A stretch of 26,769 nt of DNA from a virus, in IMG/VR virus record IMGVR_UViG_3300025316_000057, positions 1 through 26,769 of that record; one strand, 5' to 3'. Position numbers and translations under genes: made by a program. This document shows, in pieces, positions 4,602 through 23,847 of this stretch. Under the pieces are notes generated by a model. It was not told where the DNA came from, made no database searches, and worked only from the letters and a program-made list of their open reading frames with translations. Position 1 is the first letter of the stretch, and every line of letters starts with the position of its first letter.

Positions 4602-4604
4602 TAG

Positions 4605-6020: not shown

Positions 6021-6059
6021 ATTCATTTCTCCTATGCGTCGTTGTTTGTCAACTGACGG

Positions 6060-7433: not shown

Positions 7434-7736
7434 TTACTTTTTCTCGGTTATAACGATAGGCGGGATATCGATTGTCTTTCTGCTTTTGTTGTATTCGTCA
7501 ACGTATTCAGTATCTAGGAAGATGTGAATGCTTTCCTCTTTATGAATCTCTGATCCTTCGATTTCACACATCAATTTAAGAGCATCTAAAATATCTTTTG
7601 GTTTGGCGTCAGGCATATCGAAAGCAATCATTTTTGCTCTGGCAAGTTTCTGAGCCAAAGTAATGCCTGAAATAGTAGCGGCGTCAGCCTGTGATTTATC
7701 AATCTCTTCTGTGGTTTTCTTTGCCCTTGGTGCCAT
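7434..7736 (-). CDS. Probable terminase small subunit
   Basis: A 100-aa protein directly upstream of terL. A GTG at 7760 would add 8 residues, but ATG 7736 follows AAGAG at suitable spacing and fits the overlap with the previous gene (about 38 bases). The N-terminus is basic (MAPRAKK). A helical core with AKPKDILDALKLMCEIEG resembles the small-terminase oligomerisation region, followed by an acidic segment and a hydrophobic tail. I assign it mainly by position, size and this core; I cannot point to a clear DNA-binding helix-turn-helix. Its role would be recognition of the phage packaging site. Confidence 0.6.
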   Translation of the reverse strand: MAPRAKKTTEEIDKSQADAATISGITLAQKLARAKMIAFDMPDAKPKDILDALKLMCEIEGSEIHKEESIHIFLDTEYVDEYNKSRKTIDIPPIVITEKK

Positions 7737-7890
7737 ATTTACTCTTATTTTTGATTTCACAAAGCCTACATAAAATCCAATTCGTTAAAATTCCTTCAGT
7801 GTCTGACTCTATACCCTGAAGCAACAGGCGGTAAGCCTTCCTACTTTTGGCCATCCTTTGAATGTACTCCATCGCCTGAATGAGATTCAT
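7699..7890 (-). CDS. Hypothetical protein, 63 aa, first gene of the packaging operon
   Basis: An unknown small basic protein. A longer reading from 7974 lacks a good initiation site and would run into the promoter element. ATG 7890 has TAGGAG at 8-base spacing and is chosen. The protein has a helical N-terminus (MNLIQAMEYIQRMAKSRKAYRLLLQG) and an unusual middle containing ILTNWILCRLCEIKN with two cysteines, then a charged tail. It overlaps the probable TerS gene and is led by the 7976-8004 late-promoter element. It could assist packaging or be part of a two-protein small terminase; this is inference from position. Confidence 0.65.
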   Translation of the reverse strand: MNLIQAMEYIQRMAKSRKAYRLLLQGIESDTEGILTNWILCRLCEIKNKSKYGTKGKENHRRD

Positions 7891-7975
7891 TTTGTGACTC
7901 CTATAAACAAAAAGGGTGTGCGTAGAAGGGTAAGGAAAAATCAAAACAAAGGAGTCCCATCTACAGCACACCACC

Positions 7976-8004
7976 GATTAAGAGTCTGATTTCTAAGGCA
8001 GTTA
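7976..8004 (-). promoter_or_regulatory. Putative late promoter for the packaging operon
   Basis: On the minus strand it reads TAACT, 17 bases, then CTTAATC, with AGAAATCAGACTCTTAATC identical to the element at 21121. It lies 85 nt upstream of the 63-aa gene. The spacing is that of a -35/-10 pair, but the boxes are not host sigma70 consensus. Confidence 0.6.
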
Positions 8005-8067
8005 ATATTTAATTTGATACTGAGGATAAAATATAGAGACACCCTTAGCTGTCCTTAACGAGTAAAA

Positions 8068-8571
8068 ATGACAAGGAAAAACAAAGCCGTAACCGACACA
8101 GAATTAATTCAAGCTTATCAAGGCATCATTCACACCCTAGCCTTTGGATTATGCAAGAGTAAAAACCACTATTGTTATGATGATCTGGTTCAACAGGGTT
8201 TGATTTCAATTCTCAGACTAAAGGATAGATTCACCTGTAGTGACGCCTATCTATTGCAGTGTTGTAAGCGCGATATGCTGACGATGTACAAACGGCTTAC
8301 CTGTCCAGTTTGTTTAACCAGAGATCATAACCTTCCAAAGTCGATTCCTACCGCAGTAGAGCTTGACGAAAGCTTGCCTGATAAGGAAGAAATAGATGAT
8401 CAAAGCGAACTTATGACGGTCATAAAAGACAGGGTATCTAGGCTTCCAGCCGATGAAAGAAAACAAGTTGAAAGCTATATGGCCAATATCCTGTCTGCCA
8501 AAGGTGGAAGAACATCTGATAGAGCCAAAGAGATTTTACGGAGAATCACACAGGATCTTAATTCTTTTTGA
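8068..8571 (+). CDS. Sigma-70 family-like protein, possible late transcription factor
   Basis: A 167-aa protein like a small (ECF-type) sigma factor. Residues about 10-75 follow region 2: a helix with QAYQGIIHTLAF, the signature-like DDLVQQGLISILRLKDRF, and DAYLLQCCKRDMLTMYKRL, which aligns with the core-binding and -10-reading helices. After an acidic linker, residues about 118-160 (RLPADERKQVESY...GRTSDRAKEILRRI) look like a degenerate region 4. The ribosome-binding site is weak (GAG at 8060-8062). It is the only plus-strand gene within the late half, divergent from the packaging operon and convergent with the capsid-tail operon. I infer that it directs host RNA polymerase to the conserved late element. 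An anti-sigma or unrelated regulator remains possible. Confidence 0.65.
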   Translation: MTRKNKAVTDTELIQAYQGIIHTLAFGLCKSKNHYCYDDLVQQGLISILRLKDRFTCSDAYLLQCCKRDMLTMYKRLTCPVCLTRDHNLPKSIPTAVELDESLPDKEEIDDQSELMTVIKDRVSRLPADERKQVESYMANILSAKGGRTSDRAKEILRRITQDLNSF

Positions 8572-8971
8572 AATCTTTGATCGTTTCAGCCGTAGATTGC
8601 ACGAATCCTGACGCCTGACTGATCTGGCGTGTATAAGTCACGGCACAACCTAAAATTGTAATTACTACGCCTATGGTGATTATAGCTGTCCGCATATCCT
8701 GAATAATGGCTTTAGCAAACAAGTTCCAAAGGCTATCTTTGGTGACAGGATCTTGTTTTTCTACGTCATGTGTTTCGTCTGCATAATCCATAGCCCTTAG
8801 CATTAACAGCGTGTCAAGCCCGTTGGATAAAGCCACAGATAGTGCGAACATACCCTGATGCGATTGGCAGGCCTCTACCGGCTTCTGCGTCGATGCCGCA
8901 CTATCTGTGGCAGTTTTTAATGCTGTCCTTGATTTATTGATGATATCGATTAATGCTTCGTTATTGCTCAT
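8558..8971 (-). CDS. Single-span membrane protein, 137 aa
   Basis: A protein of unknown function with one transmembrane helix at about 94-113 (AIITIGVVITILGCAVTY), a mainly helical soluble N-terminal part and a short charged tail. There is no signal peptide. It starts behind AGAGG at 5-base spacing. It is the last gene of the capsid-tail operon and its final 14 bases overlap the end of the plus-strand sigma-like gene. Phage genes in this place are often holins or spanin partners, but the long N-terminal domain and single span fit neither well. A lysis or superinfection role is a guess. Confidence 0.7.
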   Translation of the reverse strand: MSNNEALIDIINKSRTALKTATDSAASTQKPVEACQSHQGMFALSVALSNGLDTLLMLRAMDYADETHDVEKQDPVTKDSLWNLFAKAIIQDMRTAIITIGVVITILGCAVTYTRQISQASGFVQSTAETIKDFKKN

Positions 8972-8990
8972 GATTTGCCTCTATTAAATA

Positions 8991-11180
8991 TTATTCGCCC
9001 CAAGCCGGTGTATATATTGTCGGTTGCGTTTCACCGCTACCGTAGAAATTAAATTTGAAATCAGTCACAACGATAAACTGTTTGATTTTGATAGTGTCCA
9101 CCAAAGTCATGTACCAGTTTTCATAAGAAATTCCGTAGACATTATCAACAGACTTCGGACACTGATAATTCCAATATAAATAATCGCTTTTGTCTGTCGG
9201 AATCACAGGAGCACTAGAACCAAGGGTAAAAACTGGAATAGACGTAGGATTTTCGATCTCAAACACCTTGCTTATTCTTATCTTGTTTAAACCCTGTCCT
9301 TGGTAATTATCGATTCTGCTTTCAGTATAAGATGTTATAAAACTTGGAACAGTACACAGATAATTAATCAGCCCGAATTTAAGAGACTCGTAATCACTTG
9401 GCTGTTTGACTGTAAAGTCTGTTTCGAACGTGTAAGGGAAATCAGGATTCCACCTGTCAAAATAGTTGTGATAATCAACCTGTGCCGGAATGTCAGCATA
9501 AGCAACGACATAGACAGTCACCTTGCTAACATACCCACTTGCGCAAGCCATTGCACTGGGGTAAGGCAATGAGCCCATAACCACCTTGCTGTTAAAGTGT
9601 CCCTCGAATGATTTGTACCAATCCCAATAAGGACTGCCATAATAGTAATCCGTCAGTGTCTTTGTCGCGTAAGCTGTGGCATTGATCGAAAACAAAGAGC
9701 CGTCCCAAGCGCAAGAGTTACTTGCCGTGACTGACATACCAGATATGCCAGCCGTGTTATAAGCCGACATTTGGATATCAGGGTTACTGAGGACTCTTAC
9801 ACCGTTTGCAAACGTGCTGTTATCACCGTAGTAGTTGACGCAATTAGACACGGACAACGCAGAGTAATCATAGATAGAGATTGTGGACTGTAGGTTTTCC
9901 AGCATCGTTTTTGCCTGATTAAGATCGTTGGTTTTAATGCTCTGGTTTGTGCGTACTATCAACTGTGATTCGACACAGGAAATGGTTTCATTGACGGAGT
10001 TACCGTCGTTGGCACTGACGTTGACAGTTGAAAAGAAGTTGGAAGAAACTACAGGGATAGGAAAGCTATGGGTTTTACCCTGCCAGTCAATCGTATAGAG
10101 TCCGCTGAAATGATCAACCGCACTGATCTTAAAAGATAATTCGCCCGTGACTCCGTTGGTGTAAACCAACTTATCAGGACTGATCGAAATCCCGCCATAA
10201 GCCTTAAGCGTCATGGTGCCTACGTCACCGGAAACACCCCATGCTGTAGTCGGGTAGACATATACCGTGTTTGATTGACCGTAATTCATAGTCGGCCTGA
10301 ATGCGCCGTCAAAACCAATCGGCTTGCCGGTAAAACTACTGGGGTTAGCCAAAGCTGTAAAATAGCCTCTGTCTGATCTAAGGTTACTGTCGATTTCATA
10401 TAGGGCACCCATAAAGATGCTTGTGTTTGTGGCAGTGCAATACAACGGTGTGGTTACTGATACAGTCCCTATAAGGTAAGGCATAGTGACTGTGTTTGTA
10501 ACGGTAAATCCGCCACCACCTAAGAGCTTAATACTAAGGATTTCAGGCTGTAGTAATTCACAGCCCAACTTGTAAACGTTGGTGCCTAGTCCTGCCCTTG
10601 TCCATATGTTGCCGTGTTCCCAAGCTGTTGAAAGGTTGGTCGCTTGGATTCCATAGCAGATAGGACTGATAGGGTAATTGTTGCTAGAAACGTAGTTGGT
10701 TCCAAGAGGCATGTAAGTCAATCCTGCTGTCGGCACCCTCGTTGCCGTCACTGGTAGAATATCGAAAGCGTTATTCGTAGGTGTTGATAACTGCCATTGA
10801 ATGACCGTCTGGTTTATACCGTTTGAGAAGTGGTAATAATTGGTACTGGTTGATATCCAAGTTTGATTCTGTCCGCAGAGATAATTACCGTCTGTGATTG
10901 GGGTAATGGACTTATCCAGCCAAAGGATAGGGGCGTTATTCGTCAGCATATTTCTGCCTTGGCAAAGGATTTTACCATACATTAAATCCCAACTGGCGTA
11001 TGGCATAACGGTATTGGAAGAAGCCTGATTAAGAGCCATGATTTGACGCTCTGCTACTCCTGCCACAAGGTAAGCCGCATCCTCTGCATGGATAGTTTTA
11101 CCCGGTCTATCAGGCCATAAGACGCCAGTGACATAGACGCCACAAGCTATAAAAACGCCTAATGCATAACGCCTAAACAT
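8991..11180 (-). CDS. Large exported or surface fiber-like protein, about 729 aa
   Basis: A long protein rich in Asn, Thr, Ser and Tyr with an extracellular beta-structure feel and many aromatic residues. It begins with a basic stretch and a hydrophobic segment (FRRYALGVFIACGVYVTGVLW, about residues 2-22), i.e. a signal peptide or membrane anchor. ATG 11180 sits 8 bases after AGG and is preferred over 11186. It overlaps the previous gene. I see no lysozyme, protease or lectin motif. Position at the distal end of the tail module, after the tape measure and two tail genes, suggests a tail fiber or receptor-binding protein, yet a Sec-type N-terminus is unusual for a virion part. It may instead be an exported accessory adhesin. 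Confidence 0.7.
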   Translation of the reverse strand: MFRRYALGVFIACGVYVTGVLWPDRPGKTIHAEDAAYLVAGVAERQIMALNQASSNTVMPYASWDLMYGKILCQGRNMLTNNAPILWLDKSITPITDGNYLCGQNQTWISTSTNYYHFSNGINQTVIQWQLSTPTNNAFDILPVTATRVPTAGLTYMPLGTNYVSSNNYPISPICYGIQATNLSTAWEHGNIWTRAGLGTNVYKLGCELLQPEILSIKLLGGGGFTVTNTVTMPYLIGTVSVTTPLYCTATNTSIFMGALYEIDSNLRSDRGYFTALANPSSFTGKPIGFDGAFRPTMNYGQSNTVYVYPTTAWGVSGDVGTMTLKAYGGISISPDKLVYTNGVTGELSFKISAVDHFSGLYTIDWQGKTHSFPIPVVSSNFFSTVNVSANDGNSVNETISCVESQLIVRTNQSIKTNDLNQAKTMLENLQSTISIYDYSALSVSNCVNYYGDNSTFANGVRVLSNPDIQMSAYNTAGISGMSVTASNSCAWDGSLFSINATAYATKTLTDYYYGSPYWDWYKSFEGHFNSKVVMGSLPYPSAMACASGYVSKVTVYVVAYADIPAQVDYHNYFDRWNPDFPYTFETDFTVKQPSDYESLKFGLINYLCTVPSFITSYTESRIDNYQGQGLNKIRISKVFEIENPTSIPVFTLGSSAPVIPTDKSDYLYWNYQCPKSVDNVYGISYENWYMTLVDTIKIKQFIVVTDFKFNFYGSGETQPTIYTPAWGE

Positions 11181-11685
11181 ATTCATTACCTGTAATTAAG
11201 TCCCTATAATCATCAACGACAAACCAGATACCACCGTTACTCATAAGCTTGTAAATCGGGATTTTGACGTACACCGATGCCTGTGGTGTCTGATCTGAAA
11301 CATCGGGAAGACTGCCACCTTTGATTAGTTCCAAGGTGTTGTCATTGGTGTTAAGTTTGATACCTATAAATTGTTCTGTGCCTGTGTCTGGAAGGGTAAC
11401 AGATAGATCATCACTTATGATCGTGATAGGTCCTCTTGGCAAATAACATCTTGTACAGGTAAAGGCTTTGGTTGATGTGTTGTAGGAGCTATCGAAGATC
11501 CTGTTAAAGCTTGGAATCACAGGAAGACTACACGCAAGATGGACACCGTTGGAAGACACGCTTCCAGTCAGGCATCCGCCAAAGCTAAAACAAGAGACTG
11601 CGTTTAACCTACGGATGATCGCGTTAACGACATCCCTTGTGGCTATAGCCCCTGAAAACATTGGCATCTGTGGCAGACTGTTCAT
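11173..11685 (-). CDS. Probable tail or fiber-associated protein, 170 aa
   Basis: Unrecognised, but it looks structural: a short helical start (TRDVVNAIIRRLNAV), a cysteine-containing turn-rich segment, then beta-strand-like sequence ending in a hydrophobic KIPIYKLMSNGGIWFVVDDY stretch. It has no signal peptide. The ribosome-binding site is poor, and the start is close behind the previous stop, so translational coupling is likely. The last 14 bases overlap the large fiber-like gene. The order tape measure, 274-aa protein, this protein, fiber suggests a tail-tip or fiber-adaptor role. Confidence 0.65.
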   Translation of the reverse strand: MNSLPQMPMFSGAIATRDVVNAIIRRLNAVSCFSFGGCLTGSVSSNGVHLACSLPVIPSFNRIFDSSYNTSTKAFTCTRCYLPRGPITIISDDLSVTLPDTGTEQFIGIKLNTNDNTLELIKGGSLPDVSDQTPQASVYVKIPIYKLMSNGGIWFVVDDYRDLITGNEYV

Positions 11686-11688
11686 AGG

Positions 11689-12513
11689 TTATAGAGCGTT
11701 AGGAAGCGTTGCATACTGATAAGGGTTGATGTAATCACTAGCCGTTGTCGGATGTTCAATTTTAGATATTCTCTGATAGCATCCATCGATAAAGACGTAC
11801 TGCCAGCTATCTTCTTTTACAGCCGAACCAGAGTCTAAAAGTGTCTTGATCTGATAAGAGTAAGTTCTATTCCAGCTTTCTGTATCATAGGCATTGGTAA
11901 CGGATTCAACCACTGGCGTTGCGTTTCCACTGGCCAAAAGCACTGATCCTTTAGGCAGTCCCCAAAGGGTAGCGTTATTTAGTTTACCGACAACAGTTTT
12001 AAGCTGGTCAATCAAAGTGGTCATAGAACCTCTATAACGATCTGTGACGTTAACTCCAATCGTACAGTTCTGAACAGGTACAGTCACATCAACGTTAAGC
12101 GCAACGAAGGTGCCGCTTGTCGCGTCAGGACTGATGTACCAACTTCCACCTTTGCTCTTTTCCTTGGTGAACACGTCAAACGAAGCACCGCCTTGAATGG
12201 ACACTTGGACTGTTCCGTATTTAGCACCGCCTAAAATATCACTGCCAGCATTGACGGTAAAATTATCGTACTTGCAGATATACTTGGTTCCTGCGTTCTT
12301 GTTTTCGTCAACGTAATAACTCTGGGCTATATCGATGCATTGCAAATGAACGTCAGAGGGATAGGTGTCACCTAGAGCCGGGATATTATGCAGTGTTCCG
12401 CTTCTCCAAGTGCATACCAGATAAGTGGATGTAGCGGTTTTATATCCGCCGTAGCTTTCTTCTATGACATGTCCCGTGTCCAAAAGCAATCCCTGTATAG
12501 GTGTAGTAGGCAT
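11689..12513 (-). CDS. Probable distal tail protein, 274 aa
   Basis: A beta-rich protein directly after the tape measure gene, where siphophages encode distal tail or tail-tip proteins. No family motif is certain. The sequence is Thr/Gly/Asn-rich, with TWRSGTLHNIPALGDTY near the start, a middle segment with GTFVALNVDVTVPVQNCTIGVNV, and a C-terminal SWQYVFIDGCYQRISKIEH stretch. It starts at ATG 12513 behind AAGGAG. I assign it by gene order, size and composition; a baseplate hub or receptor adaptor are alternatives. Confidence 0.65.
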   Translation of the reverse strand: MPTTPIQGLLLDTGHVIEESYGGYKTATSTYLVCTWRSGTLHNIPALGDTYPSDVHLQCIDIAQSYYVDENKNAGTKYICKYDNFTVNAGSDILGGAKYGTVQVSIQGGASFDVFTKEKSKGGSWYISPDATSGTFVALNVDVTVPVQNCTIGVNVTDRYRGSMTTLIDQLKTVVGKLNNATLWGLPKGSVLLASGNATPVVESVTNAYDTESWNRTYSYQIKTLLDSGSAVKEDSWQYVFIDGCYQRISKIEHPTTASDYINPYQYATLPNAL

Positions 12514-12522
12514 AAATTCTCC

Positions 12523-14286
12523 TTATGGTGTCGGAACGGTGTAACAGCTATTGGCCTTACCGCTTAAAACGTCTGCAACCGTCTGCTGTGCGATTAATGA
12601 TTGACGCTGAAACTCTGCGTCAGCGTCCTTCTTCTCTTTTTGAAGATCCTTGATTTCCTTCTGAAGATCCAAAAGCTCTTTTTCGCGCTGTTTCTGATCG
12701 TTCTGATCCTTGTTGATAGCCTGAGCTAAAGCATTTCCAATTTCAGTTACCCCGATGCCGGTAGAAATGCTTGTAGGATGTGCTTCAGGTTTATCGATCT
12801 TTTCTTGAACCTTTTTAATCCGCTTATCAAAATCGTTTTGTCCCATACCAAATTGATATTTGCGTTCATTCTCAGACATGATGGAACCGGCTATGGATTT
12901 ACGCTGACCGTTTAAAATGTCTTGGTTAGCCTCTAGTCCTTTCTGCATTTCTTTTAGCTTAGGATTATCAGGGAATTGGGACAGTTTGTCCTTAACCTCG
13001 GCCATAGACGTTATGTTATTTGTTCTTATCTCATCGATTCTGCCTAGCCAAGATTTCTGGATATTAGCAGGAGTGCCACCAGCATAAGTGTCACCCTGCC
13101 TTGCAATCTGGCGTTGAAAATCAGTAACCATTTCAGGCATACGTAGGGAAGTGAAAAGGCCCTTGTTATCCAAGCCTTTCTTGAAAGTGTCTTCCTGCAT
13201 GAAATTAGCAGAGAAAGCTGATTCCCCTGTGCGATATGTAAGCTTGTTTTTTATTCCTGATCCGATAGCCCCTGCATATTCACCCCAACCCAATCCCTTG
13301 GTTTCAGGTATAACCATTTTAAGGCCTGCCAGCACAGCGGCGGCTACAGCGGCGGCAATGGCAATAATAGGAATAGCACTTAGCAAACCGGCACCGAAAG
13401 CACCAGCGGCCTGAGTCATACGCGATAGCCCCATGGAAGCACCAGCGGCTAAATCAGCGGCCTTACCCGCTACAGCACCGGCACCGATAGAGGTAGCTAT
13501 AGAACCGGCCCTTGTACCCCACAAAGAAGCTCTTTGGATAATCGGCTGTGCGTTGTACTGTGCCGCAGTCAATCCGCCTTGCAAGCGTCCATAGATATCT
13601 CTGGCGTTATTGCCTATTAAGTGGGTTGCTCCATGCCCGACACCTATATCGTAACCTGTGCCTAATGCACCTCCAAGCAAATCACCACCGGCCGTAGAGG
13701 CACCGCCAATTAAACCTGCTTTACGGATATCCTGTGCCAGCTTGCTTCCGGATGCAACCAATTGACCGCCAATCGTTATACCCTTCATACCGACAAACAC
13801 AGCCGCGAATTCTTTGCCGTAATCAACCAGCTTTTGAAGCTTGGCTGTGTCTAAGCTGTTAAGCTTGTCGGCTAGGATCTCTGCCCATTGATAAAGCGTC
13901 TTGCCACGGAAAACGTTTACCTCAGTCGCCAGCTTCTTACCTACTCCAGCGGTAGCACTTTCGATATTACCTAAAGCTACCTGAAATTTCTGAGCTTCTA
14001 CTGATCCTGATTTAAGGAAAGCCGCTATAGCCAAACCGGCACCGACTCCACCAGTCTTAAGCACACGTTCTAAGGGCTTGGATAGCTTGTCTGACAGTTC
14101 CGCTATGCCACGGGACAGAGTGGCAACGTGTTCAAGCATGGCACCCTTGACGGCTTTACCGCTTTGTTCGCCAGCCTTCTTTAACCCCTTTTCGAGTTTG
14201 TCTGATGCCGCAGTAATAGCTTTATCAGCCTGTACTGCGTCAGCTTTTACCTCTACAAAGGCTTCTAAAATTGCTTGATCTGCCAT
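12523..14286 (-). CDS. Tail tape measure protein
   Basis: A 587-aa protein with the hallmarks of a tape measure. The N-terminal part is Ala-rich and helical (VEVKADAVQADKAITAASDK), there is a hydrophobic stretch at about 292-326 (AIPIIAIAAAVAAAVLAGL), Gly/Ala-rich segments occur around 190-280, and the C-terminus has a charged coiled coil at about 525-570 (repeated LQKEIKDLQKEKKD-type heptads). It sets tail length and is expelled during infection. The size is modest for this family, so the tail should be short for a siphovirus. It follows the tail chaperone genes by 5 bases, the standard order. Confidence 0.9.
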   Translation of the reverse strand: MADQAILEAFVEVKADAVQADKAITAASDKLEKGLKKAGEQSGKAVKGAMLEHVATLSRGIAELSDKLSKPLERVLKTGGVGAGLAIAAFLKSGSVEAQKFQVALGNIESATAGVGKKLATEVNVFRGKTLYQWAEILADKLNSLDTAKLQKLVDYGKEFAAVFVGMKGITIGGQLVASGSKLAQDIRKAGLIGGASTAGGDLLGGALGTGYDIGVGHGATHLIGNNARDIYGRLQGGLTAAQYNAQPIIQRASLWGTRAGSIATSIGAGAVAGKAADLAAGASMGLSRMTQAAGAFGAGLLSAIPIIAIAAAVAAAVLAGLKMVIPETKGLGWGEYAGAIGSGIKNKLTYRTGESAFSANFMQEDTFKKGLDNKGLFTSLRMPEMVTDFQRQIARQGDTYAGGTPANIQKSWLGRIDEIRTNNITSMAEVKDKLSQFPDNPKLKEMQKGLEANQDILNGQRKSIAGSIMSENERKYQFGMGQNDFDKRIKKVQEKIDKPEAHPTSISTGIGVTEIGNALAQAINKDQNDQKQREKELLDLQKEIKDLQKEKKDADAEFQRQSLIAQQTVADVLSGKANSCYTVPTP

Positions 14287-14291
14287 AAAAA

Positions 14292-14525
14292 TTACCCCGC
14301 AAACTCGAAAATGTTGACCGGCTTACCCTCGGCTTTCAGCTTCTTAATCTTATCCGCTATCGCCTGTTTCTTTATCTCTGCTTGTGTCTGATCTTTATAA
14401 TCAGGATCTATGTACTTTGCCACTTTAGCTAACACGCTAGGACACTGATCTAAAACGTAATCCAGCGTCCAATGCATGCGTTCACAGATACTAATGATAA
14501 ACCTATCTATTCCGTCGTTATTGTG
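14292..14525 (-). CDS. Tail assembly chaperone, second frame (gpT-like), likely reached by +1 frameshift
   Basis: The frame encoding MHWTLDYVLDQCPSVLAKVA is open upstream of its ATG (14477), without a stop, back into the preceding gene; 14525-14478 would encode 16 more residues starting HNNDGIDRF. That frame is +1 to the upstream chaperone gene. A +1 slip at TTT-C (14529-14526), just before the upstream stop at 14518, would give a 220-aa fusion (143 + 77 residues). The ATG at 14477 has no good ribosome-binding site. Tail chaperone pairs made by programmed frameshift are well known (lambda G/GT); +1 is rarer than -1. The product would hold the tape measure protein during tail assembly. Confidence 0.7.
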   Translation of the reverse strand, partial: HNNDGIDRFIISICERMHWTLDYVLDQCPSVLAKVAKYIDPDYKDQTQAEIKKQAIADKIKKLKAEGKPVNIFEFAG

Positions 14526-14955
14526 GAAACGTAGAGTCCTGCTTACCCTCAGCCTTCTTATCTTCTACGTCATCTTCAACAACACCCAACGAAAACAGAT
14601 AAGCCTTTAAGATTTCCTCTGCGTTATCCTGCCATAGATCCTCTGCAATCATAGGAGTACAGGAATAAACCAAAGTCTCTTTAACGGCTTCGTCAGTCAT
14701 CCTGTAAGCCTTCATGTCTTCGTCACTGACAATATTCTGCTTTGAAGCTTCAACGAGAAACTTGATCCTGTCAGCATCGGGCAGAATCTTGGCCAATGCC
14801 AAGGTTTCCTGTCTTGATTTAGCCTTAAGGTTTTCAACAAGTTTATCGTTCAACTGTTTACGCTGACGAATGGTTAATTCTTTGCAGACAATCGCAACAT
14901 AGCCGTCTTTTTGGGCTAGGTTAAATGTTTTCGTTGGTGTGGTAAGTTCTGTCAT
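14518..14955 (-). CDS. Tail assembly chaperone (gpG-like)
   Basis: A 145-aa acidic, helical, soluble protein located between the tail tube and the tape measure gene, as expected for the first tail assembly chaperone. Characteristic features are a short N-terminal beta part, then a helix-rich body with RQRKQLNDKLVENLKAK and an acidic C-terminus (GVVEDDVEDKKAEGKQ). It starts at ATG 14955 after AAGGAAAAAT. It stops 40 bases before the second chaperone ATG, but the second frame is open across the gap. It would recruit the tape measure protein and not enter the virion. Confidence 0.75.
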   Translation of the reverse strand: MTELTTPTKTFNLAQKDGYVAIVCKELTIRQRKQLNDKLVENLKAKSRQETLALAKILPDADRIKFLVEASKQNIVSDEDMKAYRMTDEAVKETLVYSCTPMIAEDLWQDNAEEILKAYLFSLGVVEDDVEDKKAEGKQDSTFPQ

Positions 14956-14986
14956 ATTTTTCCTTGTCCTTTGTTTTATGATAAAC

Positions 14987-15010
14987 GGGGTAGCCGGAAA
15001 GGCCTACCCC
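14987..15010 (-). terminator. Hairpin after the tail tube gene
   Basis: On the minus strand GGGGTAG pairs with CTACCCC, with an inner CC/GG and a small bulge. It is a strong stem between the tail tube stop and the chaperone gene, followed only by a weak GTTTATC. It is best read as a partial terminator or attenuator that lets the tail tube mRNA outnumber the downstream message. Confidence 0.6.
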
Positions 15011-15018
15011 TGCACATC

Positions 15019-15378
15019 TTATGCGCTGACAGTAGGCACAACCGTAGCCGAAATGCTGAAGTCTGCGATTCCGTCCTTGGCTCCGTTACCCTTAACGTTA
15101 GTTACCTTGACGTTATAGGAAGTCGAAACAGTGGCAATAACGATAGTCACAGTAACCACATCATCAACATCGAAAACACCAAGGATGTTATCCCTGAAAT
15201 TGACAGTAAGATTCGTTGACTTATCAATCATCACGATAGCCTTTTCGCCAGCCGCATCTTCGAATGCTCTAGCCCCAACCTCATTACCAACCTTATCAAC
15301 CGACATAGAATAAGCGCGATAGGTGCCACTGCCAGCCGTAACGCTGATGTCATCACCCAAAATAGCGAATGAACTCAT
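15019..15378 (-). CDS. Major tail tube protein
   Basis: A 119-aa beta-rich protein with the compact sandwich pattern of small phage tail tube proteins: alternating hydrophobic strands (NLTVNFRDNILGVFDV, VVTVTIVIATVSTSYNVKV) and a C-terminal KDGIADFSISATVVPTVSA strand, where these proteins typically end. Length is short but within the family range. It starts behind GAGGG. It is bracketed by its own late-promoter element (15456-15484) and a hairpin (14987-15010), which fits a protein needed in hundreds of copies. The tail chaperones and tape measure follow. Confidence 0.75.
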   Translation of the reverse strand: MSSFAILGDDISVTAGSGTYRAYSMSVDKVGNEVGARAFEDAAGEKAIVMIDKSTNLTVNFRDNILGVFDVDDVVTVTIVIATVSTSYNVKVTNVKGNGAKDGIADFSISATVVPTVSA

Positions 15379-15455
15379 ATTTAATCCCTCTTTTTATCAA
15401 CACCTCAAAGCGTCCACCATAGACACAATAAGGATGTGAAAAGTGTTGTTATACT

Positions 15456-15484
15456 GATTAAGAGCCTGAAAACGGGGTAGCTTA
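15456..15484 (-). promoter_or_regulatory. Putative late promoter for the tail tube gene
   Basis: On the minus strand TCAGGCTCTTAATC matches the other two elements with one G/A difference. It lies in a 103-bp gap, 77 nt upstream of the tail tube start. The upstream half (TAAGC) is less conserved and coincides with the stop codon of the gp10-like gene. Confidence 0.5.
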
Positions 15485-15778
15485 CTTCTTAGCGAACTCT
15501 GTTAACGTATCGATTAGGGCAGTCCTAAGCCAAGCCTGCGGCCTTTGGGCATGAGGACCACTGGTGCCAAACTCAGTGTAAGCCGCCTTCGGTAATGAAG
15601 ATCCTACACGCTTATTACCGTTCTCCATGTCTTCTGTGTGGATGTCGGCTTTCAATTCGCCAGTGTCCACAGGGCAGTAATACCTAGCCCTTTCTTCCAG
15701 AAATGCGGCTCTGACTTCAACTTGCTTGGCTGTCCAACGGGCAACCACTTCATCGAAATTGGATTTCTTCTTGATCAT
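15482..15778 (-). CDS. HK97 gp10-like head-tail/tail completion protein
   Basis: A 98-aa protein matching the HK97 gp10-like family: the conserved core CPVDTGELKADI, then GSSLPKAAYTEFGT and a final QAWLRTALIDTLTEF helix. The N-terminal third is a charged helix. Such proteins complete the head-tail interface in siphophages. It starts at ATG 15778 two bases after the DUF1353 stop. Its usual neighbours (connector, head closure, tail terminator) lie about 3 kb upstream, so accessory genes have been inserted into this part of the operon. Confidence 0.85.
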   Translation of the reverse strand: MIKKKSNFDEVVARWTAKQVEVRAAFLEERARYYCPVDTGELKADIHTEDMENGNKRVGSSLPKAAYTEFGTSGPHAQRPQAWLRTALIDTLTEFAKK

Positions 15779-15780
15779 AT

Positions 15781-16251
15781 TTAAGCCTGTTCTATCTTAA
15801 TCAGGTTTCTATATTTGGCTATGTCTTCTGGTGTCTGTGTCCAGTGGTTATTTCCGAATAACCTGACAGCGTTATAGACCGCTGTTTGTTTGGCTTTGTC
15901 TGCGTAATAAACACCCATTAGGTACTTTAATAATCCGTCAGTTTCACACCTTGGGAATTCTGGCAAATGAACGCAGTACAGCAAATCGTGGAACATAGAT
16001 CCTACGATAATATCATGATCCATAGGGCTTCCGATTAACGTCCAGAATATTCGGTTTATACTAGCCCCGTCATAATCAAAGCCTTTTAACGCTGTCAGTT
16101 TATAGCCATTATAGGTAATCGAAAAGTCTTCCAGTAATAACCAGCCCTCTGCTTTGTCTGGATAATAAAAGGGTTGAAGTTTAGGGAACAGAATCTTATC
16201 TGACTTACTACCGTCCGGATTACAGCAGAAAAATGTTTCTCCGTAGATCAT
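15781..16251 (-). CDS. DUF1353 family protein
   Basis: A 156-aa protein with the DUF1353 core: LKGFDYDGASINRIFWTLIGSP followed by HDIIVGSMFHDLLYCV. The family is common in tailed phages near tail or lysis genes; its function is not established, though the His/Asp pattern suggests metal binding. It is cytoplasmic with no signal peptide. Its start overlaps the lipoprotein stop (TAATG), indicating coupling. In this genome it sits with the small accessory genes between the LamG protein and the gp10-like gene. Confidence 0.8.
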   Translation of the reverse strand: MIYGETFFCCNPDGSKSDKILFPKLQPFYYPDKAEGWLLLEDFSITYNGYKLTALKGFDYDGASINRIFWTLIGSPMDHDIIVGSMFHDLLYCVHLPEFPRCETDGLLKYLMGVYYADKAKQTAVYNAVRLFGNNHWTQTPEDIAKYRNLIKIEQA

Positions 16252-16514
16252 TATTTCTTACCCATAGCGTCTATCACTCCTTTGGTGATCCCCTCAGACA
16301 CTTGACTCATAGCCGCAGACCCCCCATCAGTTTTATATCCATCGACTTTAAGCACACCATTAGTAGATACTTCAAACCCGCCGGTTTCTGTAGGCCATAA
16401 AATAGCTAATCTATAAGCACTAAAACCTGTTGGTGATTTGATGACTGTTCCTACACAGCCCGTTAAAACGGCCAATGTTGCTATCAGAATCTGGATCATC
16501 ATTAGTTTTTTCAT
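16251..16514 (-). CDS. Small phage lipoprotein, 87 aa
   Basis: ATG 16514 overlaps the previous stop in an ATGA and follows GGAGAAGAA. The N-terminus is a lipoprotein signal: MKKLMMIQILIATLAVLTGC, with LTGC as lipobox and Cys20 as the lipidated residue. The mature part is about 67 residues, Gly/Ser-rich, of unknown fold, without the proline-rich character of Rz1-type outer spanins. It would be anchored in a membrane, probably the outer one. Possible roles are superinfection exclusion or a lysis component. A longer reading from 16598 is not supported, since it hides the signal. Confidence 0.75.
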   Translation of the reverse strand: MKKLMMIQILIATLAVLTGCVGTVIKSPTGFSAYRLAILWPTETGGFEVSTNGVLKVDGYKTDGGSAAMSQVSEGITKGVIDAMGKK

Positions 16515-16732
16515 TTCTTCTCCTTGTATTCTGTATTTGTAAATATATCGATACTTTTTAGGCTGTGTTCCTGCCACTGTTCGAATGTCCAATTGCATGA
16601 TGGGCCTTCGATTGGGCCTTCACAGGATTTAAGCGTATCCAAGGCCTCTAAGAGGCTGTCAGCGGCTACGGCCTTCGTGTCTTGTGATCCGAAGACTCCT
16701 ACTGCGTTAAACTTATAGAAAAATTTTTTCAT
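16511..16732 (-). CDS. Hypothetical protein, 73 aa
   Basis: An unknown small protein with an excellent start site (AGGAGAAACACATGAA). A basic, aromatic start (MKKFFYKFNAVGVFGSQDTK) is followed by a helix (AVAADSLLEALDTL) and a segment with two cysteines and two tryptophans near CNWTFEQW. There is no membrane span. It overlaps the lipoprotein gene by 4 bases, so the two are probably co-translated. The start region is identical over 16 bases to the internal start in the capsid gene at 20777. Confidence 0.7.
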   Translation of the reverse strand: MKKFFYKFNAVGVFGSQDTKAVAADSLLEALDTLKSCEGPIEGPSCNWTFEQWQEHSLKSIDIFTNTEYKEKK

Positions 16733-16778
16733 GTGTTTCTCCTGTTTGTAAGATTATTTATTAAATGATTATGGCATC

Positions 16779-17519
16779 TTATTTTGAAGCAATAACGGAT
16801 ATTTCATTTTGAGAAAGCGGTCTGTCATAAATTCGCACATCGCGAATAATACATTTTGTGAAGCTTGATACTCCATAGTAGTATACTGCACCTAATGTCA
16901 TTTTTCGATTTTGTGAACGTGGATGCCATGATGATGTCACAAGTGGTGAACCATCTAAATAAAGTATAGAAGAAGTCGCTGATGCACTTACTGCAAAATG
17001 ATGCCAACCTAAAATTGAGGTTGTATAGCCAATATTTCCACCATTCCCGTCTCCAGCATACAAAAAATGCGGTATAGAATTATCAAAATAGAACAAGATT
17101 CCAGCGCCTGCACCACCACCACCACAATCGTCAAGGAAAAGGGCATTACTATTTAGTACCTCAGTATAAACCCATAATGATATTGTGGCTGAAGACAGAG
17201 ACTGTGAATAAAGAACACTTGTACCTAAATCTATATAAGCATCAATTCCATTAAAATAATATCCATTTTTCCCAGCGGCATTGTTTGTTGGAGTAGCTCC
17301 TATGGCATTTCCGTTATTCGATCCAATAGAATCTAATGCATTTCCATCCAATTTCCACCAAGCAACCAAACCGTTAAGCACATCTTGTGAACCCCATGTC
17401 GCAACTTTATTAACATAGTGTTTATCGCTTCTGTTTCCGAGTAGGTGATAAGTAATAGGAATATCCGCCATTCCAAACAGCGCAGATAAACAAAGCATTA
17501 TAGCTAGTAAAGTTTTCAT
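16779..17519 (-). CDS. Exported LamG/concanavalin-type lectin domain protein
   Basis: A 246-aa protein read from ATG 17519, whose A is the last base of the upstream stop; the ATG at 17537 would spoil the signal peptide. Residues 1-18 (MKTLLAIMLCLSALFGMA) are a Sec signal. From about 50 on it follows a LamG/laminin-like jelly roll: GLVAWWKLDGNALDSIGSNN, YYFNGIDAYIDLG, SATISLWVYTE, WHHFAVS, ILYLDGS and a final IIRDVRIYDRPLSQNEI, all hallmarks of this fold. It probably binds glycans at the cell surface or on the virion. The gene is distinctly AT-rich compared with capsid and connector genes, so it may be a later acquisition. LamG genes of this style are common in PVC bacteria. Confidence 0.85.
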   Translation of the reverse strand: MKTLLAIMLCLSALFGMADIPITYHLLGNRSDKHYVNKVATWGSQDVLNGLVAWWKLDGNALDSIGSNNGNAIGATPTNNAAGKNGYYFNGIDAYIDLGTSVLYSQSLSSATISLWVYTEVLNSNALFLDDCGGGGAGAGILFYFDNSIPHFLYAGDGNGGNIGYTTSILGWHHFAVSASATSSILYLDGSPLVTSSWHPRSQNRKMTLGAVYYYGVSSFTKCIIRDVRIYDRPLSQNEISVIASK

Positions 17520-18547
17520 TATTGAAAAAGTTCCCAATACTGATTTGTTCCGCCGTCATAAGATACCCATTGGCCATGATCAATATCATTTGTCCAAATA
17601 CCTACACCCTTACAATAAGCAGTATATCCCGGCATAGGTGAATTCGTACCGAAGTCAGTGACATTTCCGAAAATTACAATGTTCTGTCCATTCGTAATTA
17701 CTCCATCAGCAGTAGTAAGAATTCTGTTTGTATTTTGGTAAATATTACCTGTCACGTTTAAGTTATTGCTTACCACAAGAGAATTCAGCGTTGCGTTTGA
17801 ATTGTTGGTGATAATACCATGAGTCAGGGGCTGGTAATTTGTAAGATCATAGGTATAGGCCAGTGTGTCAAAGCCGTTTGTTATCACAGTATAAATAGGA
17901 ACTTGAACTTCAATAAAAGAAACAATTCCATCCAAGCTATCAGTCATATTAAAAGAGGTATTAGTGTAAGAAGTAGTAGGACTCTGATAAGTAAATGTAA
18001 TACTTTCACCACCAACTATTGGAGAAGTAAAAGTAGTATCCCATTTAGAATATGTTGGCCTAAAACTTAAGTTAGCATGTCCCGTACAAACATATTTCCA
18101 ATAATTAGTTGTAACAACGTGTGTATGTATATTAGTAGCAAGAACTATAGAATCAAACTTCCAAGTTTCACCTATTGTCATAATTAGATTTGTAGCATTT
18201 CCAGAAAATGAAGTAAGTTCAAAACCTCTAATAAAGTTTGTTGTTACCGAAATAATTGGCACATATTGGATTGCGTTTAAATCGTTAGATACTGATGCTT
18301 TAGTAGCAAGGCTTGGCTTATCAGCACTGTAAATAGGATCGGTTTCAATAAAGGCAGGGATAACCGAGATAGCGTAATCCACGATTCCCGTCACTGCCTG
18401 ATATGTCGGCTTTGAAGATGCTTGATTAGACACAACGCTAATCTGATTTTGTAGGTTTGTCTTAACTGTGTTTAGATCGTTGAAATTCGGGAAGCTTCCA
18501 GCCAAAACACCAGACGCCACAAACAGAAATGCTATAATTTTTCTCAT
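17519..18547 (-). CDS. Exported tail fiber-like protein, 342 aa
   Basis: It begins with a Sec signal (MRKIIAFLFVASGVLAGSF). The next part has fiber-type sequence: a coiled stretch with LNTVKTNLQNQISVVSNQ, then FIETDPIYSADKPSLATK, a motif frequent in phage and PVC-bacterial fibers, a long Thr/Ser/Asn-rich beta region, and NNSNATLNSLVVSNNLNVTG, a beta-helix-like repeat typical of fiber shafts. It starts after AGGAG. The gene is AT-rich like the LamG gene it overlaps, and together they interrupt the usual connector-to-tail order. A side fiber or surface adhesin working with the LamG lectin is likely; the signal peptide on a virion protein would be odd. Confidence 0.7.
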   Translation of the reverse strand: MRKIIAFLFVASGVLAGSFPNFNDLNTVKTNLQNQISVVSNQASSKPTYQAVTGIVDYAISVIPAFIETDPIYSADKPSLATKASVSNDLNAIQYVPIISVTTNFIRGFELTSFSGNATNLIMTIGETWKFDSIVLATNIHTHVVTTNYWKYVCTGHANLSFRPTYSKWDTTFTSPIVGGESITFTYQSPTTSYTNTSFNMTDSLDGIVSFIEVQVPIYTVITNGFDTLAYTYDLTNYQPLTHGIITNNSNATLNSLVVSNNLNVTGNIYQNTNRILTTADGVITNGQNIVIFGNVTDFGTNSPMPGYTAYCKGVGIWTNDIDHGQWVSYDGGTNQYWELFQ

Positions 18548-18549
18548 AT

Positions 18550-18972
18550 TTAAACTCCTAAAGTGACCATGAAAGTTTTATCACACTGCCAGTACCCCTG
18601 CGTGTCACTAGGCACCGGCCCCTGACCGCCTAAGTATTTTACCTGTACGTAAGAACTACCCCACAAAACCTTATTCTTCATCGCGTCTTCTATCTCTGCT
18701 TGTAGATCGATCAAATCACCCCAGCCGTCACCCTTAGAGTAACAAGAGACTTGCACCATGAAGGTTTCCGTTTTACAGTCAAAGCTGAATGCCTGAGTGT
18801 TGGATGTAGAACTTGCGAACATCCAATAAACCATATGGGGATAACCGGCTATCGAAGGTGCCTGTTCTGGATAAGCTGGCACGTCAGAGATAGAGTTAAG
18901 AACAGTGCCTATCTGTGTAAGCAGAATCTTGGTTAAATTCGTTTCTTCTGATCCATATTCGCTATCTGACAT
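18550..18972 (-). CDS. Tail terminator/tail completion protein
   Basis: A 140-aa protein with the layout of gpU-like (DUF3168-type) tail terminators: an N-terminal helix (NLTKILLTQIGTVL), a beta strand with YPHMVYWMF, then ETFMVQVSCYSKGDGWGDLIDLQAEIEDAM and a final strand near QCDKTFMVTL. It follows the head-closure gene, where the family is normally encoded. It would cap the tail tube and join it to the head. It starts at ATG 18972 behind AAGGA. Confidence 0.7.
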   Translation of the reverse strand: MSDSEYGSEETNLTKILLTQIGTVLNSISDVPAYPEQAPSIAGYPHMVYWMFASSTSNTQAFSFDCKTETFMVQVSCYSKGDGWGDLIDLQAEIEDAMKNKVLWGSSYVQVKYLGGQGPVPSDTQGYWQCDKTFMVTLGV

Positions 18973-18975
18973 AGT

Positions 18976-19308
18976 TTAATCCTTGGCACTAATGCCTAAA
19001 ATGATGTGATGCTTGCCTGCTGGCACATAGGCTGGCTCTACGTTTACCACCGTGTAAGTGGTTTCATTTATCTCTACAGTCCAGCCGATATCTATATCAA
19101 CGTCTATGCCTTTGGGTGCTATAAACGAAAGCTCATAGTCATATCGGCTTTCCTGCTGTTTCTGCGACACTTGGCTTGACGCCTGAGTCAGCCATGCATT
19201 TACAGGATTAGGATATACGGCTTGATAGGTAGGAATAAGCTGGTTAAGGCTATTTCTTTCTGTGCCAAAGACAGCCTGCTTTATGACCGCTTTACAATTA
19301 GACAACAT
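18976..19308 (-). CDS. Head closure (head-tail joining) protein
   Basis: A 110-aa beta-barrel type protein read from ATG 19308, which shares one base with the upstream stop; a TTG at 19314 is less likely. Features typical of SPP1 gp16/HK97-like head closure proteins are the strand YDYELSFIAPKGIDVDIDIGWTVEI with the following TTYTVVNVEPAYVPAGKHHIILGI. It would seal the connector after packaging. It lies between the connector and the tail terminator. Confidence 0.7.
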   Translation of the reverse strand: MLSNCKAVIKQAVFGTERNSLNQLIPTYQAVYPNPVNAWLTQASSQVSQKQQESRYDYELSFIAPKGIDVDIDIGWTVEINETTYTVVNVEPAYVPAGKHHIILGISAKD

Positions 19309-19799
19309 TAGCAACCTCTGACATAGATTTTCGATTTGGCATAGAAACTAAGCTCTTCGTCATAGAGGCTAGAAGCAGAAGTTGCTGTATCGGCATTGGT
19401 GTAGCTGTAGTTGCGGATTGACTCTGATTTCTTAGTCAAATCCCTTGATCCGTCGTTATGCTCCAAGCGTGCTTTGATCATGTTGGCTATCACAGTGTCC
19501 AATCCCTCTGGAAGTGCGATAGCGTCAGCACGGAATTTATAGCCGGTGAATCCTTCAACGTATTTGCTTACAACCTGAGCCGCTTTAAACCAGCAGATAT
19601 CTGAGCATGGTAAATCATCGATGTCAAAAATCTGCTTATAGACACTGATTGAAATCAAAGGCTCATTGCCTGTCGGCAAACTCTGCGGCTCTAAGTCATA
19701 TTCGGTTTCACCGTACTCTATATGTAGCCCGTTGGCATCAGTGCTGAATAGGATTTCACGCCATTTATGGGTTACTGCGTCTTGTAGATATGTAGCCAT
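19308..19799 (-). CDS. Head-tail connector (adaptor) protein
   Basis: A 163-aa protein immediately after the capsid gene, where gp6/gp15-like adaptors are encoded. It has helical segments CSDICWFKAAQVVSKYVEGF and LPEGLDTVIANMIKARLEHN and a C-terminal tail rich in Ser and Thr. It would bind beneath the portal ring. It starts at ATG 19799 after AAGAGGT. The fit to the family is by position, size and helical pattern rather than by a strict motif. Confidence 0.65.
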   Translation of the reverse strand: MATYLQDAVTHKWREILFSTDANGLHIEYGETEYDLEPQSLPTGNEPLISISVYKQIFDIDDLPCSDICWFKAAQVVSKYVEGFTGYKFRADAIALPEGLDTVIANMIKARLEHNDGSRDLTKKSESIRNYSYTNADTATSASSLYDEELSFYAKSKIYVRGC

Positions 19800-19811
19800 T
19801 TTTTACCTCTT

Positions 19812-19847
19812 GAAAAACAAAGGGCGGCGGCTTGCGCCTACCGCCCC
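19812..19847 (-). terminator. Strong terminator after the capsid gene
   Basis: On the minus strand GGGCGG-TA-GGC-GCAA-GCC-G-CCGCCC is followed by TTTGTTTTT. The stem has a GNRA tetraloop. It stands between the capsid stop and the connector start, so part of the transcripts would end here, favouring capsid mRNA. Confidence 0.85.
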
Positions 19848-19874
19848 AAATGTTATTGCTACCTTTATCTTATC

Positions 19875-21023
19875 TTACACGCCGTACTCAGACTCGGAAG
19901 CGTACACCATGCCCGCATACTCTGCACCGGCATAGGTTTGGATACCGCAGGCAAGGCCACCGGCAAAACGACCGCTGATCTTAACCGCAACTTCATCCGT
20001 CAGGAAAGAAGCCGAAGGATCGACTTCAACGCGGATGTCACGGGCAACGCCAGAAACGTACTGTCCGAAGTCACCGAACACCATCGGGGTAGCCGCAGGC
20101 ACCGCCATGGAAATCACAACGTCAAAGCCCAGAAGCATAGGCGTCTTGCCTGCTTGGATAAGCTGGTTGCCGATATTCTCAGCCGTCAACAGTTCGCCGC
20201 AGATAGCACTCCAGCCTTTAGGAGAAACCACCCACTTGCAGTTAGGCAAAAGAGCCGGGTTAATCTTGGCAGTCATCGCCAACAGTTCATCAGCCTTCGG
20301 CGCGTCAAGATCCGCGATAACCGCAATCGCCGTGTTAGCGTCATTCACAATTCCGTTAAAGCCCTTGTTCTGAGTGAAGGGGCCATTAAGAACCGAGTTA
20401 TCCAGCACGAGGTTAAGCTTATTGCCAAGCTCCTTGGTAACGAAAGCCTCCATATTTTCCACGTCGTCAACCATCTCTGACGGGATATTGACAGTCGCGA
20501 TCCACTTAGCCGGGATAGCGTCATACTCAGCAAGCGTGCAAGCCGTGCCAGCCCCAGTGGATTCACCGACGATTCCGATAACAGGAGCGTCAGCGTTGGA
20601 ATTCACGTTGCTGTAAACGATCTTAAGGTTGCCCTTCACAGTGCGCTTGGAAGTCAAGCCGTAAACCTGCGCGTCCTGACCGACGATGCCTAGAATCTCA
20701 GTACTCGTGGTAGCAGAGTAGTCAGTCGCCGCCTTAGTGGAAATAGTGTTCGAAATTGCTTTAATCAGTCCCTTCATGTGTTTCTCCTTGGCAACCGCTT
20801 TGGGTGCCGAAATTGTTTTCTGTTCGATATCTTTGACCGCCTTGGCAGTCATTTCATCAGTCTTACAAGCGCATTCCTGTTCAATCACATCGTCAGGCAC
20901 TAGAACCGCAGTTCCATCAGCGGTAAGGGTGTCAACAAGTGCTTGATCCTCAATCTCTATGACGGAATCGACAGGCAATACCTGACCGTCAAGCGTGTAC
21001 TCTTTGATAAATTTGATCTTCAT
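19875..21023 (-). CDS. Major capsid protein (HK97 fold) with N-terminal scaffold-like domain
   Basis: A 382-aa capsid protein. Residues about 85-382 follow the HK97 pattern: an N-arm, the E-loop region with TVKGNLKIVYSN, the long spine helix (VDDVENMEAFVTKELGNKLN), and the A-domain with LPNCKWVVSPKGW and PMVFGDFGQY. Residues 1-82 are a small acidic domain (IKFIKEYTLDGQVLPVDSVI) followed by a charged, Lys-rich linker; it would act as the delta/scaffold domain removed by the protease. An internal ATG at 20777 (Met83) has a perfect AAGGAG site, so a 300-aa form may also be made. The gene has its own late-promoter element and terminator. It is separated from the protease and portal by most of the genome. 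Confidence 0.9.
   Translation of the reverse strand: MKIKFIKEYTLDGQVLPVDSVIEIEDQALVDTLTADGTAVLVPDDVIEQECACKTDEMTAKAVKDIEQKTISAPKAVAKEKHMKGLIKAISNTISTKAATDYSATTSTEILGIVGQDAQVYGLTSKRTVKGNLKIVYSNVNSNADAPVIGIVGESTGAGTACTLAEYDAIPAKWIATVNIPSEMVDDVENMEAFVTKELGNKLNLVLDNSVLNGPFTQNKGFNGIVNDANTAIAVIADLDAPKADELLAMTAKINPALLPNCKWVVSPKGWSAICGELLTAENIGNQLIQAGKTPMLLGFDVVISMAVPAATPMVFGDFGQYVSGVARDIRVEVDPSASFLTDEVAVKISGRFAGGLACGIQTYAGAEYAGMVYASESEYGV
20775..20790 (-). promoter_or_regulatory. Internal ribosome-binding site and start in the capsid gene
   Basis: AAGGAGAAACACATG reads in frame at Met83. The same 16 bases (AGGAGAAACACATGAA) start the 73-aa gene at 16732, where no upstream frame competes. The position coincides with the junction between scaffold-like domain and capsid core. 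Confidence 0.55.
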
Positions 21024-21120
21024 TTTGTCCTTTGACTGCCTTATATCTACTGCGCTTTTTTTCCGTCTTAGGGTGTGTGGCTAAAACAAGAAGCGGGCAC
21101 AATATTTTTGTGGCGTCAGT

Positions 21121-21149
21121 GATTAAGAGTCTGATTTCTGTAGAAGTTA
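21121..21149 (-). promoter_or_regulatory. Putative late promoter for the capsid gene
   Basis: On the minus strand TAACT, 17 bases, CTTAATC, sharing AGAAATCAGACTCTTAATC with the packaging-operon element. It is 97 nt upstream of the capsid start, downstream of the insulating terminator. Confidence 0.6.
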
Positions 21150-21187: not shown

Positions 21188-21220
21188 GATAAAAGAAAAA
21201 GCACCTAGGTTAAAGGTGCC
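21188..21220 (-). terminator. Insulating terminator upstream of the capsid promoter
   Basis: On the minus strand GGCACCT-TTAACCT-AGGTGC is followed by TTTTTCTTTT, a textbook intrinsic terminator. No minus-strand gene lies directly upstream, so it would stop antisense transcription through the recombinase gene from reaching the late operon. Confidence 0.8.
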
Positions 21221-21278
21221 TTGTAAGTCTTTGCTTATTAGATATTTACGATTATTCGGTGCTTGGTTATTCTGTATC

Positions 21279-21353: not shown

Positions 21354-21378
21354 CAAACCAAACCAAACCAAACCAAAG
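21354..21378 (+). repeat. CAAAC tandem repeat in the recombinase leader
   Basis: Four CAAAC units plus CAAAG run directly into the AAAGGA ribosome-binding site. Unit gain or loss would alter the leader by 5 nt but not the coding frame. Confidence 0.8.
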
Positions 21379-21386
21379 GATACGCC

Positions 21387-23084: not shown

Positions 23085-23410
23085 GGGTAGCGATTATAGA
23101 AGAAGTAGGTAGTTTATCTATAGCGGCTATGACCGCAAGGTTTCTGTCTGGTTTCAATCGGTTGGTTTATCCTGTATGGTTTCTATTATCGAAGATTAGA
23201 GTTATCATATCAATAGTTATAAGTGTCTGTGATTGAATATTTTAAGTTCGATATTTTGGACTGTATTATTAATGGTGATCATCCCTAATCACCGAGTCAA
23301 ATAGTCCCATGTAATTATCACAGGGGGCTTATACCGTCAGGATAAACAGGCTGATTGACCAAGAACGGCTATAAACACCAGTGTTATACTAGGTTCGCAA
23401 TAATCAAAGG

Positions 23411-23529
23411 GTTTAAACTAGCATCGGTTATGATCTGTCTGTTTAACCTGTTCTAATTCAATAAGTTATGATTAAACAATCACCTGTTTAAAAGATCAAT
23501 AATATGACGTGTTTCATCGGCTTGTTTAA
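23411..23529. repeat. Cluster of GTTTAA motifs
   Basis: Five GTTTAA motifs in either orientation begin at 23411 (within the palindrome GTTTAAAC), 23441, 23472 (inverted), 23486 and 23524. A further inverted copy is at about 23753. The core also occurs in the arms of the recombinase promoter dyad (GTGTTTAAG). Spacing is irregular. Confidence 0.45.
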
Positions 23530-23639
23530 CATGCTTGATTTGCAAGCACTTATGACTTATTAGTTGACATAATAAATATTTCGCGAAGCTGAGTAAATCA
23601 TTGTCTAGTTAAGATATAGTGTTTATAATCGGCTGGCTT

Positions 23640-23735
23640 AGGTGTGACATTATGTCTCAGTTTGGTTAATCAGGTGTGACATTTTGACACACCTCAGCGT
23701 CTAAAGACAAACATTATGTTACCAGCATACAACCC
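23640..23735. repeat. Three operator-like units with 32-bp periodicity
   Basis: ACATTATGT starts at 23647, a variant ACATTTTGA at 23679, and ACATTATGT at 23711: exactly 32 bp, about three helical turns, each. Units 1 and 2 share AGGTGTGACATT. Unit 2 is an imperfect palindrome with arms AGGTGTG (23672-23678) and CACACCT (23688-23694). Confidence 0.6.
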
Positions 23736-23783
23736 ATAGTATAAAAAACCAGATTAAACAAGAATGACACAACCTATAGTATA
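23729..23783. repeat. Direct repeat ACAACCYATAGTATA, two copies
   Basis: Copies at 23729-23743 and 23769-23783 match at 14 of 15 bases and start exactly 40 bp apart. They lie between the 32-bp units and the early terminator. Confidence 0.5.
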
Positions 23784-23790
23784 TAGACAC

Positions 23791-23820: not shown

Positions 23821-23847
23821 CTTTCATCGGTGTGTATGATTAAGCTA

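Follow-up and report, generated by a model that had tools for sequence, protein, structure and literature searches.

A repeated promoter-like element before three structural gene units of an uncultured phage, and its possible link to a neighbouring sigma-like gene

How an uncultured phage might switch on structural genes that lie in separated units is the question raised by the record IMGVR_UViG_3300025316_000057, analysed here over positions 1-26,769 (26,769 nt; hereafter the window). An earlier inspection without database searches (the sequence-only reading) had proposed that a late-promoter element, shared by the packaging operon, the tail tube and the capsid, precedes all three in the same direction. 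An exact-match scan of both strands of the whole record recovered three copies of TCAG(A/G)CTCTTAATC, all on the minus strand; exact matches to TCAGRCTCTTAATC were found at 7976-7989, 15456-15469 and 21121-21134 on this strand, and none on the plus strand. The element is quite probably a promoter in some form, and we lean, if only slightly, towards interpreting the three copies as phage-specific late promoters that would most simply be served by the sigma-like protein encoded beside copy 1 (Table 1).

With at most one mismatch allowed, TCAGACTCTTAATC returned the same three sites against 0.02 expected from dinucleotide shuffles; in 1.54 Mb of control sequence from other loci, two loci picked for the motif being set aside, there were three matches at this stringency. 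Copies 1 and 3 have 19 contiguous nucleotides in common (AGAAATCAGACTCTTAATC), and both extend exactly to TAACT 10 nt before the core, with a spacing of 17 bp from TTAACT or CTAACT to CTTAAT, as the sequence-only reading had described it. At the corresponding offset copy 2 has TAAGC, whose TAA serves the preceding gene as its stop codon. All three copies fit the composite TAA(C/G)(T/C)-N10-TCAG(A/G)CTCTTAATC, for which no further site appears when up to three mismatches are allowed; the expectation of 0.03 is to be read with the knowledge that the pattern was drawn up after the copies had been seen. In an alignment of 200 nt around the copies, identity is limited to approximately 29 nt, and the flanks are at chance level. 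A chance repeat without function is exceedingly improbable: some same-strand 14-mer family with at least three copies and one free position did appear in 2 of 60 shuffles of the window, and copy 2 is weak outside the core, but the element stands three times on the same strand and in the same place before structural genes, in company with its extension and with the leader structure described below.

Table 1. Coordinates of the repeated element and of the genes, hairpins and leaders associated with it.
Feature	Position	Strand	Description
Element copy 1	7976..8004	-	TAACTGCCTTAGAAATCAGACTCTTAATC; upstream of packaging operon (gene at 7890); the gap separates the operon from the divergent sigma-like gene
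Element copy 2	15456..15484	-	TAAGCTACCCCGTTTTCAGGCTCTTAATC; before presumed tail-tube gene (15378)
Element copy 3	21121..21149	-	TAACTTCTACAGAAATCAGACTCTTAATC; before major capsid gene (21023)
Packaging operon	2991..7890	-	Small open reading frame (ORF), small terminase-like, large terminase, portal, protease/minor head
Presumed tail-tube protein	15019..15378	-	Between HK97-gp10-like gene and tail-chaperone/tape-measure genes
Major capsid protein	19875..21023	-	HK97 fold, family Phage_capsid
Terminator-like hairpin	21198..21222	-	AAGGCACCTTTAACCTAGGTGCTTT + TTCTTTT; copy 3 follows about 50 nt downstream
Terminator-like hairpin	19826..19845	-	Follows the major capsid gene, in a gap of 75 nt; within a longer stem GGGCGG...CCGCCC
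G+C-rich hairpin	14987..15010	-	GGGGTAGGCCTTTCCGGCTACCCC; directly after presumed tail-tube gene; weak T tract
Leader 1	7891..7975	-	85 nt, folded; stem GGTGTGC/GCACACC closes from 3 nt past the element; z about -3.1
Leader 2	15379..15455	-	77 nt, moderately folded; z about -2.1
Leader 3	21024..21120	-	97 nt, folded; closing stem from 2 nt past the element; z about -3.5 to -3.8
Sigma-70/extracytoplasmic function (ECF)-like protein	8068..8571	+	167 aa; divergent from packaging operon, beside copy 1; candidate late sigma factor or activator

The minus strand is the late strand of this phage, carrying the capsid, connector, tail and packaging genes, and on it the element precedes structural operons only, with no copy elsewhere in the record. 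The distances from element to start codon (85, 77 and 97 nt for copies 1 to 3) reproduce the range of 77-97 nt given earlier. Late-strand gaps longer than 75 nt are found only before the three genes concerned, one element in each; the statement that the element is missing from other gene gaps is therefore true, but the remaining late-strand gaps, all of 75 nt or less, are too short for a promoter followed by a leader of such length. The middle unit had been named the tail tube, which its position fits, but profile searches matched the protein to no family, and the assignment is made by position only. The order of the late-strand modules (2991-21023) is itself unusual, with capsid and tail genes before the packaging module (terminase, portal, protease) and the sigma-like gene between them; for comparison, the order in the distantly related phage record IMGVR_UViG_3300031707_002022 (L032) is terminase-portal-protease-capsid.

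Within the three gaps, a consensus scan of the minus strand detected no sigma-70-like site at a threshold of at least 9/12 matches to TTGACA/TATAAT, which may not be the consensus of the host. Copy 1 of the element, read as a sigma-70 promoter (TTAACT-17-CTTAAT), scores 4/6 + 4/6, or 8/12, below this threshold, and copies 2 and 3 match less well; the proposal that the layout is not host consensus holds at most to this extent, and the geometry is that of sigma-70. This resemblance bears on the main rival explanation, a late promoter at which the host housekeeping sigma factor acts with the help of a phage activator bound at TCAG(A/G)CT/AGAAA, in the manner of RinA/Ltr, with the sigma-like protein acting as the activator or being irrelevant. 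The ideal spacing of copy 1 would suit such a promoter, as would the conservation just upstream of the -10 hexamer, which exceeds the needs of a plain ECF promoter, and in Staphylococcus phages the genes of the Ltr regulators immediately precede the late promoter under their control (PMC13123087). The RinA/Ltr systems and the present locus have in common that a small regulator gene (here a candidate) adjoins the promoter (here a probable one) of packaging or late genes; they are set apart by the sigma-like nature of the neighbour here and by the recurrence of one element at three widely separated sites. Since the sigma-70 fit is poorer in copies 2 and 3, and the neighbouring protein resembles sigma region 2 and not a classical activator, we consider a host-sigma promoter with a phage activator unlikely, though it comes before all other alternatives, an antitermination site being the next.

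The surroundings of the element are consistent with new transcripts beginning at it. The terminator-like hairpin upstream of copy 3 would, if it works, part upstream transcription from the capsid unit, and the capsid gene would then need a new promoter. All three leaders fold better than shuffled sequences; among background windows 6% reach z -2.2 and 1.3% reach z -3.0. For leaders 1 and 3, the significance of folding is lost once the 5' end is shifted more than approximately 4 nt past the element, and shifting it upstream brings no consistent gain; folding from the downstream edge of the element is as expected if transcription starts there. Alternatively, the element could act in RNA as an antitermination (boxA/nut-like) site on transcripts that begin upstream. 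The terminators downstream of the capsid and tube genes could need such a site, copy 2 lies within an otherwise continuous gene run, and (G/A)CTCTTAA within the element has what we take to be a resemblance to the boxA core. However, between the terminator and copy 3 there are only about 50 nt, in which no promoter-like site was detected; the same strand likewise showed none a short distance upstream of copies 1 and 2. The element falls short of what defines a boxA/nut site, with no common boxB-like hairpin after the three copies in the alignment around them and no Rfam match, and a nut site would have no use for TAACT at a fixed distance; antitermination is accordingly rather improbable.

Two further alternatives replace the proposed promoter with a different kind of site. 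The record probably represents a temperate phage, as judged from its serine recombinase, which would need to keep its late genes silent, and repeated operators are a common phage device; the element could in this case be an operator through which a phage repressor or silencer controls the late genes. Yet it is not palindromic, it occurs in one copy per site, and there is no alternative promoter for it to overlap, which makes an operator scarcely probable. The contiguous 19 nt that copies 1 and 3 share have a length comparable to that of promoters of T7-like single-subunit phage RNA polymerases, but such a promoter is very improbable here: the window, probably an incomplete genome since the gene at 26157-26768 is cut by its end, showed no recognisable single-subunit RNA polymerase, and the truncated gene itself offers DNA-polymerase-A-like hints only (weak similarity to NF011538, E=0.0027; no PDB match).

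The preferred interpretation, phage-specific late promoters, draws in addition on the gene divergent from the packaging operon. Its predicted protein is similar to TIGR02937 (E=8e-6; 25.6 bits vs. a cut-off of 42.9), Pfam Sigma70_r2 (E=0.0013; 18.9 bits vs. a cut-off of 24), phrog_1740 (E=0.0014) and a sigma factor in PDB (E=0.0095); the likeness is weak, though it recurs in several libraries, and the curated cut-offs are missed where such exist. In the proposed mechanism, TTAACT/CTAACT-17 bp-CTTAAT, with the conserved TCAG(A/G)CT shortly before the -10 hexamer, would direct RNA polymerase, and recognition would most likely be by host RNA polymerase carrying, or aided by, the phage sigma-like protein. 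Transcription would start a few bases downstream of the terminal ...AATC and yield folded leaders of 70-95 nt before the capsid, tail-tube and packaging genes. The capsid and the presumed tube, the two most abundant structural proteins, would each be preceded by a promoter and followed by a hairpin terminator, an arrangement by which their expression would be raised over that of the downstream genes. Strand, position, the promoter-sized extent of identity, the lack of other promoter-like sites in the gaps, the terminator upstream of copy 3, leaders 1 and 3 and the sigma-like neighbour all lend support to the late-promoter proposal of the sequence-only reading, within what sequence analysis can indicate.

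As a caveat, several observations weigh against this interpretation. Copy 2 agrees with the consensus of copies 1 and 3 at 17 of 25 positions, which makes it the third-best site in the window, and this score is reached in about half of the shuffle runs; copy 2 has neither the TAACT match of the -35 region nor the AGAAA stretch, and the -35 block is degenerate. Its membership rests, in consequence, on the 14-nt core and on its position. The structure of leader 2 begins farther downstream and not at the edge of the element. Terminator-like sites in the region are not enriched as a class (14 found vs. 13.9 expected in shuffles), so that the argument depends on the locations of the three hairpins. 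The element resembles a weak sigma-70 promoter, ideally spaced at 17 bp in copy 1, and with this geometry a dedicated sigma factor is not required. The single-sequence AlphaFold model of the sigma-like protein is too poor to use, and the helices predicted at the expected regions 2 and 4 are those of a model with a mean predicted local distance difference test score (pLDDT) of only 42.6; no homologue of the protein was found in the annotated phages searched. Finally, the element is absent from the relatives found, none of which is close.

Searches for relatives placed the phage at some distance from all others recovered. Exact capsid and terminase peptides found no relatives in IMG/VR, nor did the 19 nt common to copies 1 and 3 have a match there; in the genomes of two phyla, the searches recovered generic portal homologues. 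Searches across IMG/VR, GTDB genomes and annotated phages, portal and terminase alignments among them, yielded distant relatives only, the nearest of which (L032, L033 and L049) show 23-34% protein identity and are themselves short fragments. The packaging and capsid proteins of L032 are 23-30% identical; this phage has a 14-nt repeat of its own (TTTTATATAATCTT, at 7219-7232 and 9378-9391) before the portal and capsid genes, and its capsid gene is directly followed by a strong hairpin with a 14-bp stem. The repeat is unlike the present element in sequence and contains TATAAT, and an exact 14-nt repeat of this kind arises by chance in about half of shuffles; a similar layout built on another sequence is only suggestive. 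Two candidate leads were rejected. The 29-nt composite had two hits in IMG/VR, both within coding sequence of unrelated phages and judged to be chance matches. A tRNA origin of the core, considered for its likeness to part of the anticodon arm of tRNA-Lys(CUU), was dropped as a coincidence: copies 1 and 2 lack the 3' half of the stem, and 99 genomes of one phylum contained no instance of the full-arm pattern.

Sigma-like control of a late operon is exemplified by Xpf, a sigma-like protein encoded by the Bacillus prophage PBSX, to which the present case is likened by description. In the phages 7-11 and phiEco32, a comparison of intergenic regions revealed the promoters that belong to a phage-encoded sigma factor; the phiEco32 motif is short (TAATGTATA), the core of the 7-11 motif is TGATGT, and the sigma promoters of phiEco32 have been experimentally established (PMC4331800). 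These phages and the present one share a low-copy motif before structural genes that is unlike an ordinary host promoter, together with a sigma factor gene of their own (here a predicted, sigma-like one); the present block differs in being longer, in its apparent -35 part and in its unrelated sequence.

Other features of the record lie apart from the element. Two small early genes carry direct repeats of 45 nt at their 3' ends (24546-24590 and 25000-25044; 89% alike), which encode similar C-terminal peptides, SGIPDC.GN.VY. Behind the packaging genes, the gene at 1760-2209 resembles an anaerobic ribonucleotide reductase activase (TIGR02826, E=1.2e-25, below its cut-off), which suggests that the host may be anaerobic; it is adjoined by approximately 900 nt (858-1759) nearly without coding sequence, save for a plus-strand ORF of 66 aa. 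A stretch of about 760 nt (23085-23847) with short repeats and without long ORFs adjoins the serine recombinase gene and is a possible attachment site or replication origin, and a short tandem repeat of CAAAC (21354-21380) lies just upstream of the start codon of the recombinase.

The locus would be a sound new example of a familiar route by which phages switch on their late genes, the principle being already known. More tentatively, and doubtful in its entirety, a deep-branching uncultured phage may here pair a sigma-like factor that is compact and divergent with a new promoter specificity of 29 bp, and keep its capsid and tail-tube genes in separate cassettes of promoter, leader, gene and terminator, the two commonest virion proteins being dosed by transcripts of their own. 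The small sigma-like protein and its defined 29-bp target form a testable pair in a lineage that has no close relative in the collections searched; if the interpretation is true, they would bring a new specificity to the known promoters and illustrate clearly how the expression of the most abundant structural proteins is set in a small phage.
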